From positions 9,522 to 44,418 of the forward strand of contig JBBFLF010000020.1 of NCBI GenBank assembly GCA_037481655.1: a stretch of 34,897 nt of DNA, written 5' to 3'. Origin of the DNA: Desulfobaccales bacterium (GTDB lineage: Bacteria > Desulfobacterota > Desulfobaccia > Desulfobaccales > 0-14-0-80-60-11). Shown here piece after piece: positions 1 to 34,897 of the stretch (position 1 is the stretch's first letter; each line of letters opens with the position of its first letter). The position numbers and the translations under genes are program-made. The notes under the pieces were generated by a model that worked only from the letters and a program-made list of their open reading frames with translations, had not been told where the DNA came from and did not search any database.

Positions 1-88
1 CCCCACCCCCCATATGGGGTGGGGGGTGAGGGCGTGGGAGAGGGGGCAGGGGCCCCCGGTCCCTGGCCCCCTCGCCCACTCTCCCGCC
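1..88 (-). repeat. Three-hairpin intergenic repeat, copy A (cut by window edge)
   Basis: This is a minus-oriented copy of the G/C-rich repeat described for copy C. The palindromic centre (CCCC..CATATGGGG) lies at about 1-26 and the long hairpin (arms like GGGAGAGGGGGC and GCCCACTCTCCC) at about 36-86. The third hairpin lies beyond the left edge. The long hairpin begins a few bases after the stop codon of the minus-strand gene ending at 92, so the copy reads in the same direction as that gene. Confidence 0.8.
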
Positions 89-1089: not shown

Positions 1090-1222
1090 GGGAAAAGCAA
1101 GGGCAAGGGGGAGGCCACGGACCGCTGGCTCCTCCCCCTCCCCGCACTTCTTCTCTACGCTATATGGGGGGTGGGGAGGGAAGTCTGGGAAGAGGGCCAG
1201 GAAGCCGCTGGTCTCCCCGCTT
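1090..1222 (+). repeat. Three-hairpin intergenic repeat, copy B (degenerate)
   Basis: This is a diverged plus-oriented copy. The long hairpin is weakened (arms around CAAGGGGGAGG and CCTCCCCCTCCCC), but the centre TATATGGGGGGTGGGGAGG and the following GTCTGGGAAGAGGGCC are clearly related to the other copies. It is the only recognisable full-length copy not placed after a gene end. It sits between the divergent purH and oxidoreductase genes. Confidence 0.6.
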
Positions 1223-1252
1223 TTTCAATTATTTTTGTAATGGTCCGCACCG

Positions 1253-7460: not shown

Positions 7461-11025
<3,565 letters not shown>

Positions 11026-11049
11026 CATGAAAAGGGCAAATTAAGTTGC

Positions 11050-11182
11050 GGGAGAGGGGGCCAGGGGACGCAGTCCTCTGCCCCCTCTCCCAAACCCTCA
11101 CCCCCCAACCCCATAAAGGGGGTGGGGAGGGGAGTCTGAGGGGAGGGCGGGGGGTCCACCGATCCCCCGGCCCTCCCCTCAG
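11050..11182 (+). repeat. Three-hairpin intergenic repeat, copy C (reference copy)
   Basis: This 133-bp element has three parts. Hairpin 1 (11050-11091) has arms GGGAGAGGGGGC and GCCCCCTCTCCC around a variable loop. The centre (about 11103-11130) pairs C-rich and G-rich runs around CCATA. Hairpin 3 (about 11139-11182) has arms CTGAGGGGAGGGC and GGCCCTCCCCTCAG. There is no U-tract, so it is not a textbook intrinsic terminator. It lies 25 bases after gyrB in the same orientation. Closely related copies are at 1, 14108, 14376, 22036, 34588 and 34842, with weaker ones elsewhere. Confidence 0.92.
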
Positions 11183-11272
11183 AGAACGAAGTGTAAGGAA
11201 GGCAGGGGGGCCGCGTAGAGCTTTGGCCCCTCCTAATTTCCCCCAGTCAAATCTGAGAAAGGAGCGCACGCC

Positions 11273-11737
11273 ATGGCTGCCCAACGGAAAGCGAAGTTCA
11301 AGATCTATGTGACCCGCCGGGAGATGCTCTATGTGGGCGACCAGCCGGATCATACCCTGATGCTCACGGAAATGGAGGGGGAACCCCTGGAGTACAGCCC
11401 CGGGGTGGCCGGCGAATTCGTCTCCCGCCGCAGCGTCGGCTTCCATGACCGCATTAAGGGGGAAGGCCCCATGCAGGGCTATGCCGTGACCCATTACGAG
11501 TACGGTGCGGTCTTCTCCCGCTTTGAGGGCGAGCGCAAGGCCGGGGTCACCTCCGGCACCTGGCGGGCCTACAAGGGCACCGGCAAACTGGCGGGCATCA
11601 CCGGCACCGGCACCTTCACGGTCAAGCCCTCGGACCGGCCCAACGAGTACATCCTGGAGATGGAGGGCACCTACGATCTCTCCGGCGCCGGAGAGCCGGC
11701 TCCCGCAGCGGGTCATGGGCATGGCCATGGGCATTGA
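11273..11737 (+). CDS. Hypothetical small beta-barrel-like protein with His-rich tail
   Basis: This gene encodes 154 residues and has no signal peptide or membrane segment. The middle is rich in Gly, Thr and aromatic residues, with alternating strands such as TSGTWRAYKGTGKLAGITG, reminiscent of allene-oxide-cyclase or dirigent-like beta-barrels. That resemblance is my reading of the pattern, not a confirmed family. The C-terminus GHGHGHGH is a possible metal-binding tail. AAAGGAG lies eight bases upstream of the ATG. The next gene begins 17 bases later and encodes a zinc-ribbon protein; its Shine-Dalgarno overlaps this stop codon, so the two are likely cotranscribed. Function is unknown. Confidence 0.75.
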   Translation: MAAQRKAKFKIYVTRREMLYVGDQPDHTLMLTEMEGEPLEYSPGVAGEFVSRRSVGFHDRIKGEGPMQGYAVTHYEYGAVFSRFEGERKAGVTSGTWRAYKGTGKLAGITGTGTFTVKPSDRPNEYILEMEGTYDLSGAGEPAPAAGHGHGHGH

Positions 11738-12108: not shown

Positions 12109-12114
12109 GGCGGC

Positions 12115-12240
12115 ACGGGAGGGCCAGGGGAAGCAGTCACATCGCCACCCTCGCTGATATTGCTCTCCTGCTCGCTTCCGGAGGGTCGGACCTGGGGGAG
12201 GAGGTGGGGGGCCGCCGGCTCCTGACCCCTCCCCTCCTTA
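12115..12240 (+). repeat. Decayed copy of the three-hairpin repeat
   Basis: After the stop at 12108 the sequence GGGAGGGCCAGGGG recalls hairpin 1. A later block (about 12194-12237, ending CCCCTCCCCTCC) recalls hairpin 3. The palindromic centre is not recognisable. It has the same orientation as the preceding gene. This is a low-confidence relic and also forms the leader of the sigma factor gene. Confidence 0.35.
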
Positions 12241-12247
12241 TTTCATC

Positions 12248-12802
12248 ATGGACACAGCTCCTCAGGACCTGGATTATGCCCTCCTTAGGCGGGTGGCCAA
12301 GGGGGAAGAGGCGGCGCTGGCCGAGCTCTTCCGGCGCCATCAGGGGCGGCTTTTCCAGGTGGCCTACCGGCTGCTGAAGGATTACCAGGAGGCGGAGGAC
12401 GCCCTGCAGGAGGTGATGCTCAAGGTCTATCAGCATGCCGCCTCCTTTGAGCCCCGGGCCCCGGTGGCGGCCTGGCTGGCCCGCATCACCGCCAACCACT
12501 GCTTAAACCGCCTGCGGGGGCGGGTGCCGCTGGCGTCCCTGGATGAGGAGGGCCCACCCCTGACCCAGGATCCCGGCCCTGATCCTTTGCAGGCCCTGGA
12601 GGAGGCGGATCTCTCCCGGCGCCTGGAGGAGCTGCTGGACGTCCTGCCGGAAAACCAGCGCCGGGCCTTGGTTTTGAAGCAGTTCGGCGGCCTCTCCTAC
12701 GCGGAGATCGGCGAAGTCCTGGGAGTGAGCCCCCAGGCGGTGGACGGCCTCATCAAACGGGCCCGGCAGAGCTTAAGAAAGGCATTGGCGGATTACCTGT
12801 GA
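12248..12802 (+). CDS. RNA polymerase sigma factor, ECF (sigma-70) subfamily
   Basis: This gene encodes 184 residues of an ECF-type sigma factor. Region 2 (residues about 22-90) contains LFRRHQGRLFQVAYRLLKD and the DALQEVMLKVYQ helix with DAxQ/DxF-like spacing. Region 4 (about 125-180) contains LPENQRRALVLKQFGGLSYAEIGEVLG and a helix-turn-helix, SPQAVDGLIKRARQSLRK. The linker is acidic and Pro-rich. No anti-sigma factor gene lies on either side: downstream is an FtsX-like permease and upstream the zinc-ribbon protein. No clear Shine-Dalgarno precedes the ATG at 12248, so translation may be weak or the start may differ. The regulated genes cannot be told from this window. Confidence 0.92.
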   Translation: MDTAPQDLDYALLRRVAKGEEAALAELFRRHQGRLFQVAYRLLKDYQEAEDALQEVMLKVYQHAASFEPRAPVAAWLARITANHCLNRLRGRVPLASLDEEGPPLTQDPGPDPLQALEEADLSRRLEELLDVLPENQRRALVLKQFGGLSYAEIGEVLGVSPQAVDGLIKRARQSLRKALADYL

Positions 12803-12828
12803 AGGGAAACCGGCCCAAATAAAAGGTT

Positions 12829-12869
12829 GGGGGAGAGGGGTCGGGAAGAGGGGCAGGGGGCCATGCTCC
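12829..12869 (+). repeat. Fragment resembling hairpin 1 of the repeat
   Basis: GGGGGAGAGGGG begins 26 bases after the sigma factor stop and is followed by a GGGGGCC..GGCC inner stem. It resembles only the first part of the repeat and lacks the centre and hairpin 3. The gap 12803-12939 otherwise shows nothing clear. Confidence 0.3.
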
Positions 12870-12939
12870 CTGGCCATTTCTTCAGGCATGGCTTTGAAAG
12901 CCTGAGGCTTTGACATGTTAATCTCCTGAGCACTGCGCC

Positions 12940-14106: not shown

Positions 14107-14107
14107 C

Positions 14108-14238
14108 GGGAGAGGGGGCCAGGGACCGTGGGCCCCTGCCCCCTCTCGCGAACCCTCTCCCCCCACCCCGTATGGGGGGTGGGGAGGGGAGTCTGAGGGG
14201 AGGGCGGGGGGCCTGTGGTCCCCCGGCCCGCCCCTCAG
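14108..14238 (+). repeat. Three-hairpin intergenic repeat, copy F (first of tandem pair)
   Basis: This is a full copy with all three hairpins, starting immediately after the permease stop codon and in the same orientation. Hairpin 1 loop bases differ from copy C while the arms are kept. The 137 bases between this copy and the next (14239-14375) hold no recognisable gene. Confidence 0.9.
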
Positions 14239-14375
14239 GGAGACGATGAGCCGGGGGCGCGCGTCGGATGGATATGGTCCAAGGGGTCCACACCTTGCCC
14301 GCAATTCATCAATTTACCCCAGAGGGATGCTGAAGCTGGCGGAGGGGAATGAACGCCTTCCTGGCGGGGGTTTTC

Positions 14376-14504
14376 GGGAAGGGGGCCGGGAACCGGTGGC
14401 CCCTGCCCCCTCTCCCGGGCCCTCACCCCCCACCCCGTATGGGGGTGGGGAGGGGAGCCTGAGGGGAGGGCGGGGGGCCTGTGGTCCCCCGGCCCTCCCC
14501 TCAG
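14376..14504 (+). repeat. Three-hairpin intergenic repeat, copy G (second of tandem pair)
   Basis: This full copy has the same orientation as copy F. Its hairpin 3 is nearly identical to that of copy F. It ends two bases before the stop codon of the convergent minus-strand gene at 14507, so it lies between two converging transcripts. Confidence 0.9.
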
Positions 14505-14506
14505 CA

Positions 14507-22020: not shown

Positions 22021-22035
22021 AAGATAGGAGATTCC

Positions 22036-22166
22036 GGGAGAGGGGGCCAGGGGTCGTGGATTCCTGCCCCCTCTCCCAGTCCCTCTCCCCCCACCCCATA
22101 TGGGGGGTAAGGAAGGGAGTCTGGGGGGAGGACGGGAGGCCTTAGGTCCCCCGGGCCTCCCCTCAG
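22036..22166 (+). repeat. Three-hairpin intergenic repeat, copy H
   Basis: This full copy lies just after livF in the same orientation. The centre reads CCCCATATGGGGGG and the element ends GGGCCTCCCCTCAG. Hairpin 3 carries several differences from the other copies. An ordinary intrinsic terminator follows 54 bases later. Confidence 0.88.
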
Positions 22167-22219
22167 ATGAGATGAGAAATCGAGCCAGCTGGCTTAATTT
22201 TTGCTACAATAACCGCCAA

Positions 22220-28716: not shown

Positions 28717-29107
28717 GACGCCGCCTCACTTGTGCTCTGGGTCAGGGCCACCCTCAGCTCCGGCCGCGGCCCTTCACTTCCCGGTGGGTGAGGCCCCGTG
28801 GCCCCTGCACCCGACCCCGATGGAGCCGGGAAGGTTATTGAGGGAAGGGCCGGGGAGGCGGTGGCTTCCCGCCCTCTCCGCCCCGGTCAGCTTGAGGCCA
28901 CAGCCCCGATTTTCCAAATAATATAAGGAGTTGGGGGAGTGGAGCGGGGTGGAAACCGGAAGCCGTGGCCCCATGCCCCTGCTCCCCCAAGCTTTGGGCA
29001 CCCGTCTCAGTATATCCCCCCAGGGGGAAGTTGCAAGGCATTTGGCCGGTTACCGGAGCTGAGGGGCCCGCCTCCCCGGCCCCGCCGGCCGTGGCCCCCA
29101 TGTCTCC
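28717..29107 (-). other. Gene-free G/C-rich stretch with decayed repeat
   Basis: These 391 bases hold no credible gene. Two stable hairpins read like a diverged, minus-oriented three-hairpin repeat. One is at 28931-28990 (arms TTGGGGGAG and CTCCCCCAA) and resembles hairpin 1. One at about 28840-28884 (around AGGGAAGGGCCGGGG) resembles hairpin 3. Between them is an A/T-rich patch (28911-28927). They follow the minus-strand DUF2905 gene and precede galT, so the direction fits the other copies. A galT promoter may lie in the A/T patch, but no good hexamer pair is visible. Confidence 0.45.
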
Positions 29108-34574: not shown

Positions 34575-34587
34575 GCCTGCTACTCTT

Positions 34588-34717
34588 GGGGAGGGGGCCA
34601 GGGGCCGAGGGCCCCTGCCCCCTCCCCAAACCCCTCCCCCAACCCCATATAGGGGGGTGGGGAGGGGGAGTCTGAGGGGAGGGCGGGGGGCCAGTGGTCC
34701 CCCGGCCCTCCCCTCAG
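34588..34717 (+). repeat. Three-hairpin intergenic repeat, copy I (first of tandem pair)
   Basis: This full copy starts 14 bases after purC in the same orientation. Hairpin 1 has arms GGGGAGGGGGCCAGGGGCC and GGCCCCTGCCCCCTCCCC. The centre has CCCCATATAGGGGGG. It ends GGCCCTCCCCTCAG. Confidence 0.9.
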
Positions 34718-34771
34718 GGGCTCTAGTTGTGGGTTTGGCCGCCAGGAAAGCGCTCCATCATCCCGGGCAAA

Positions 34772-34841: not shown

Positions 34842-34897
34842 GGGGGAGGGGGCCAGGGGCCGAGGGCCCCTGCCCCCTCCCCAAACCCCTCCCCCAA
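34842..34897 (+). repeat. Three-hairpin intergenic repeat, copy J (cut by window edge)
   Basis: Hairpin 1 is identical in both arms and loop to copy I, and the start of the C-rich centre follows before the window ends. The orientation is the same as copy I. Confidence 0.85.

Follow-up and report, generated by a model that had tools for sequence, protein, structure and literature searches.

A long-stemmed, bulged REPIN-like repeat family located behind genes of Desulfobaccales

Introduction

A non-coding element of 132 bases recurs between the genes of a 34,897-nucleotide stretch of Desulfobaccales DNA (hereafter the window), one of its copies standing directly behind gyrB. An earlier note, made from the letters alone, had described an intergenic family of three-hairpin repeats with structure apparently under selection, no coding capacity, no visible transposase and no recognized class name; it called for a copy count, for stem covariation and taxonomic spread to be determined, and for a comparison with Rfam and with REP, BIME and MITE families. 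What kind of element is this, how did it spread, and why are its copies kept?

The window corresponds to G000:C20:9522-44418 of the 2.87-Mb draft genome of a sulfate-reducer-type bacterium (G000, estimated completeness 100%). The closest named relatives of an ABC-transporter protein encoded in it come from Desulfobacca/Desulfobaccales and from unclassified Deltaproteobacteria draft genomes. The neighbouring dnaN and gyrB genes occupy positions 7461-11025, an adjacency suggesting that the window may be near the replication origin. Directly 3' of gyrB, positions 11273-11737 encode a 154-aa protein with no Pfam match; its gene follows gyrB in the relatives inspected as well, one of them in the sister family, and represents a conserved unknown gene.

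Census of the element

A covariance model recovered 5 full, 2 edge-cut and 4 decayed copies in the window (Table 1), among them every site of the earlier note, and repeat finding returned an identical set of clear copies. The sites are thus real, but their strands and borders needed revision: the copies at 1-78, near 12814 and near 28985 lie on the minus strand, and the feet of the element extend 1-2 bases further out. G001, a sister genome, has an intact single unit at the site where the window carries its diverged copy of full length.

Table 1. Coordinates of element copies, their parts and variants (window positions unless a genome, contig or locus is named).
Feature	Position	Strand	Support
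Full copy including paired feet, behind gyrB (stop at 11025)	11048..11185	+	covariance model, 136 bits
Hairpin 1 of gyrB copy; invariant bulged C at 11061/11062	11050..11091	+	alignment, fold
Middle palindrome of gyrB copy: unit-1 C-rich arm paired with unit-2 G-rich arm	11097..11134	+	fold
Hairpin 3 of gyrB copy (inverted unit); bulged G at 11169/11170	11135..11183	+	alignment, fold
Full copy, begins at stop codon of FtsX/MacB-type permease gene	14107..14239	+	125 bits
Full copy, the later of two in a convergent spacer	14374..14505	+	109 bits
Full copy, 15 bp after the end of an ABC gene for branched-chain amino-acid transport	22035..22167	+	124 bits
Full copy, 11 bp behind purC-like gene	34586..34718	+	121 bits
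Copy cut by window end, sequence equal to start of copy at 34586	34842..34897	+	51 bits
Copy cut by window start (unit 1 and arms)	1..78	-	67 bits (1-77)
Diverged full-length copy	1100..1228	+	38 bits
Decayed copy, strand uncertain	12114..12236		26 bits (12121-12236), or 21 on other strand
Decayed copy (unit 1)	12798..12884	-	26 bits
Decayed copy	28836..28986	-	28 bits (28839-28986)
Long-centre variants	G000:C1 1596-1779; L054 2997-3186; L139; G006 matches (~185 bp)
Composite-repeat stretches with single units, G001	L181, L210-L213, L184, L218-L220
Tandem duplications of element and flank	G000:C9:121729-122468; C1:81336-81756; C5:57247-57604

BLAST with a single copy as query gave more than 40 full-length matches (40 of 319 candidates scored). 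A profile search of an 820-kb sample of G000 (contigs C1, C3-C6 and C20, each in part) returned 109 matches, 68 of them full length and 42 of those 68 strong, which amounts to about 83 full copies per Mb. Extrapolation to the genome gives roughly 380 elements, of which 240 would be full-length and 150 strong. All 109 matches fall outside called genes; the family is therefore extragenic, as REP/REPIN membership demands. In this bacterium and its order, perhaps a couple of hundred genes carry an element right after their stop codon.

Anatomy of the element

When the consensus, GGGAGAGGGGGCCAGGGGTCGTGGNCCCCTGCCCCCTCTCCCANACCCTCTCCCCCAACCCCATAAAGGGGGTGGGGAGGGGAGTNTGAGGGGAGGGCGGGGGAGCCACNGCTCCCCCGGCCCTCCCCTCA, is folded, hairpin 1 is followed by a middle palindrome and then by hairpin 3. 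The RNA fold of the gyrB copy reaches -113 kcal/mol (z = -8.2), and another copy folded as DNA gives z = -9.3; neither value is a chance effect of G+C-rich composition. Both strands fold, at about -90 to -113 kcal/mol, and the covariance model matches every copy on the reverse strand as well, with 56-82 bits. When hairpin 1 and its C-rich arm are set against hairpin 3 and its arm in reverse complement, 49 of 71 columns align, with a score of 58.5 (shuffled mean 25.7, shuffled maximum 50). The reverse-strand matches and this alignment identify the element as an inverted doublet of one unit of about 64 nt, composed of a long hairpin (17-20 bp stem with one conserved bulged base) and a C-rich arm. 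The three-hairpin order described earlier is indeed conserved, but the hairpins are not independent: there are two inverted units, plus a palindrome formed by their pairing arms.

Units also occur alone. Outside full elements, the 820-kb sample holds 39 unit matches, including a few cut copies or units from loosened doublets, and single units predominate in the sister species G001. Single units of G001 are embedded in another composite repeat, TGAAAAAGGTTATTCGGG ... GGGATGTGGCTTCGCC. In long-centre variants, the two units are separated by an extra palindrome (e.g. ATCGAGGCCTTGGCCTCGAT) or by a further hairpin. Elsewhere, an element together with its flank has been tandemly duplicated, resembling tandem BIME amplification, with periods of 304 bp (three times), 288 bp (twice) and 229 bp (twice).

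A single split element was seen in the 820-kb sample: at G000:C3:34380-35306, an A+T-richer segment of 925 bp lies exactly between the two halves, and the centre of the element may thus be an insertion point. The segment holds one reading frame, alpha/beta-hydrolase-like as judged by eye. Such an arrangement, along with the short, non-coding, inverted-repeat build, might be expected of a MITE, in which the two hairpins would be the ends of a DDE-type transposon reduced by internal deletion. We consider this origin most improbable, given that, whatever boundary offset is chosen, a target-site duplication of at least 4 bp accompanies no more than 2 of 37 copies, and that the frame enclosed in this one split element appears to code for a hydrolase-like protein rather than a transposase.

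Structural constraint

The consensus structure has 42 pairs, and over 45 copies these are 96.8% paired. Counted on these paralogous copies of one genome, 15 pairs have changed on both sides, yielding 71 such cells against 17 in shuffles (none of 500 as high), and covariation in partner-slid controls lies far below that observed. The most variable pairs are those adjacent to the loops and at the feet, and pairing is kept there nonetheless. Flank base -2 at the foot of hairpin 1 is paired in 38 of 56 copies, where 19 would be expected; for flank base -1 at the foot of hairpin 3 the count is 29 of 40 (11.8 expected). None of 2000 shuffles is as high in either case. Stem covariation is therefore strong and reaches 1-2 nt beyond the element into its flanks. 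This supports the selection on structure claimed earlier, with the reservation that template-switch correction of palindromes could account for part of the pattern.

Hairpin 1 has the same bulged C in all 45 copies, and the pair adjoining it alternates between C-G and T-A. Such a fixed bulge next to pairs that covary suggests that the element may be recognized by a protein.

Position relative to genes and transcript ends

Gene borders were taken from a simple codon-usage caller, for which stop codons are reliable and starts approximate. Within codirectional spacers of G000, strong copies lie at a median of 7 bp from the upstream stop and 44 bp from the downstream start, the stop being the closer end for 28 of 31 copies; in convergent spacers the median distance to the nearer stop is 3 bp. 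Placement was compared with uniform placement in the same spacers, with two species pooled and 30 bp left for the downstream ribosome site in codirectional ones. At most 10 bp from a stop lie 18 of 21 convergent copies (11.6 under uniform placement, 0/5000 simulations) and 31 of 50 codirectional copies (22.8 under uniform placement, P = 0.0004). Random positions, which the earlier note held would speak against its reading, are thus not what is found. The element is enriched between convergent genes and depleted in spacers between divergent ones, and it shows no preferred orientation, 27 copies running with the gene and 23 against it.

Such positions raise the possibility that the element is maintained by the host at mRNA 3' ends, as a bidirectional three-hairpin structure that would replace U-tract terminators and serve to end, insulate or protect transcripts. 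Since both strands fold alike, at the energies given above, it could function in either orientation; proximity to stop codons and enrichment between convergent genes fit this role. U-tract hairpins within 200 nt are rare at element-bearing gene ends (3/51, against 83/363 at others, P = 0.003), but this deficit is confounded, the element itself occupying most of the 200 nt searched. No T-run follows the element core, which leaves it without the U-tract that follows the hairpin of an intrinsic terminator; the majority of gene ends have no copy, and the lack of orientation bias also weighs against a dedicated 3'-end element. We regard maintenance by the host for this purpose as rather unlikely, a judgment that also takes account of the distribution described below.

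Distribution and descent

At an E-value of 1e-5, 21 of 59 genomes (G000 included among those searched) possess the element, all of them from two families of one order; elsewhere in the phylum, 30 genomes of other families yielded no match at the same threshold. In other genera, including one copy in the second family, the best copies retain the same full-length consensus. The element was found neither in viral contigs by pattern search nor in plasmids by distant search.

G000 and G002, with a median protein identity of 92%, share 118 spacers between orthologous neighbours, of which 11 contain the element in both, 7 in G000 only, none in G002 only and 100 in neither (P = 3e-11); the element is thus shared with G002 at 11 of 18 G000 sites and at 0 of 100 spacers lacking it. 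The corresponding numbers for the more distant G001 are 2, 8, 0 and 32. Some orthologous pairs have locus-specific variants in common, e.g. C5:130148 and C1:1596, and these, by their shared sequence, clearly indicate vertical descent. One pair, C6:2306 and G002 C3:70935, has the same flanks and aligns far better inverted (187 vs 114), which by this alignment is an inversion in place. No new insertion appears in 160 orthologous spacers, nor was a clean empty site seen when G000 spacers were compared with those of G001 and G002, as alignment between these species fails in the spacers and is confined to coding DNA.

Descent is accompanied by decay. Several near-consensus copies of G000 have badly decayed orthologues in G002 (e.g. 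118 vs 20 bits, 122 vs 32), which fits either refreshment by conversion or locus-specific retention in G000. Strong full copies at ancestral positions thus seem to stay near the consensus in one species and decay in the other, which pure neutral survival does not predict. For an mRNA 3'-end element maintained by the host, a consensus retained in two families of the order would be expected, but the free decay of orthologous copies in G002 and the wide variation in copy number among related genomes would not.

Search for a mobilizing enzyme

The earlier statement that no transposase is visible extends to the whole genome: Y1_Tnp (RAYT, IS200/IS605) is absent from G000, G001 and G002, with controls detected, and from the copy-rich G011 and G023. 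Conversely, Y1_Tnp is present in G016, G024 and G025, which lack the element. At the best 12 Y1_Tnp loci of relatives, flanks of up to about 1.5 kb per side hold no element. Elements and weak or fair Y1 matches occur together in four genomes (G006, G010, G003 and G005), a co-occurrence that may reflect a past link. The Y2_Tnp profile gave no matches, though its controls also stayed silent. An IS110-type transposase was considered as a partner and rejected, as it was found only in G025, a genome without the element.

Within 18-bp flanks on both sides of 37 copies, the GTAG/CTAC tag occurs 4 times and the CGTC/GACG tag 2 times. The doublet anatomy, the bulged hairpins and the extragenic 3' position, all as in REPINs (PMC3116915, PMC8266576), together with Y1_Tnp genes in many family members, would be in line with a true REP/REPIN moved by a RAYT (TnpA-REP) since lost from the genus. 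Such an origin is very unlikely in our estimation, for the ends lack a GTAG/CGTC tag, none of the 12 Y1 loci inspected has the element, and the copy-rich G000, G002, G011 and G023 are devoid of Y1_Tnp, the converse holding for G016, G024 and G025.

Rfam yielded nothing above the gathering score in the window, and permissive searches gave weak matches, mostly to GC-rich microRNA models. A literature search for repeats in Desulfobacca returned nothing relevant. That the element matches no catalogued family therefore stands for Rfam, and the absence of a class name holds less fully, as REP, BIME and REPIN offer a recognizable analogy.

Proposed origin and retention

We consider it probable that the element is an old, structure-selected REPIN-like family, whose enzyme has been lost or is other than Y1/RAYT, and which possibly provides an RNA structure at 3' ends. 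As single-stranded DNA or RNA, it would form a bulged hairpin on either side of a central palindrome. Past spread would have proceeded by copying of the folded single strand, recognized through its bulged hairpin, by an enzyme presumed not to be a Y1/RAYT transposase in this genus. Copies would then have survived where they are harmless, immediately after genes and away from promoters. Transcription would turn them into highly stable structures at mRNA 3' ends, and this may contribute to the retention of some copies; a role in 3'-end RNA would be plausible.

A bolder alternative is a 3'-end system specific to the order: a bidirectional three-hairpin element with an obligatory bulge, at which a dedicated non-RAYT protein, binding RNA or single-stranded DNA, marks or terminates ends, refreshed towards the consensus in each genome and capable of being flipped in place. 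We hold this to be unlikely.

Dependence on RAYT transposases is generally assumed for REPINs. In a lineage devoid of Y1_Tnp, a REPIN-like family that is large, old and under structural constraint would either need another hairpin-recognizing enzyme or show how such families persist after enzyme loss. Gene-end sites throughout the order, an invariant bulge and covarying feet make both ideas testable, and the covariance model and consensus should be useful for annotating the poorly studied genomes of Desulfobaccales.

Comparison with known repeat classes

The hairpins behind stop codons resemble intrinsic (Rho-independent) terminators in being stable and placed right after the stop, but the element has no U-tract, forms three hairpins, belongs to a conserved repeat family and is unbiased in orientation. 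Closer likenesses are found among palindromic repeats. The comparison with REP, BIME and MITE families yields the inverted doublet of REP/REPIN, seen in the reverse-strand matches, the unit alignment and the folds, and an extragenic location, without tag, RAYT or the target duplication of MITEs. REP units span 20-40 nt with stems of 5-13 bp (PMC3733652), a range exceeded by the present unit of about 64 nt with its singly bulged stem of 17-20 bp. The element works in the manner of a REPIN/BIME, but membership in REP/REPIN fails on tag, transposase and unit size.

BIMEs, the paired REPs of E. coli, share with the element inverted units, a conserved bulge, location at gene 3' ends and occasional tandem arrays that include the flank; the element differs in sequence, has units two to three times longer and lacks GTAG. 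CGTC-tagged palindromic repeats (PMC3733652) are likewise mostly inverted dimers, located mainly 3' of coding regions and without a dedicated transposase, but their stems measure 8-9 bp and the element has no CGTC motif. REPINs, described in Pseudomonas fluorescens and others (PMC3116915), have in common with it a pair of inverted imperfect palindromes, a pairing spacer, extragenic location, compensatory changes and solo units as remnants, and their 'clover' form resembles the three-hairpin fold; the element departs from them in its missing tag tetranucleotide, the absence of RAYT from the genus, its stem and unit lengths and its occurrence in Desulfobaccales. By analogy with REP/BIME/REPIN (PMC3116915, PMC3733652) the class would be recognizable, with key defining features missing, and we file the element as an old REPIN-like family of Desulfobaccales, RAYT-independent, bulged and long-stemmed, whose inheritance is mostly vertical.
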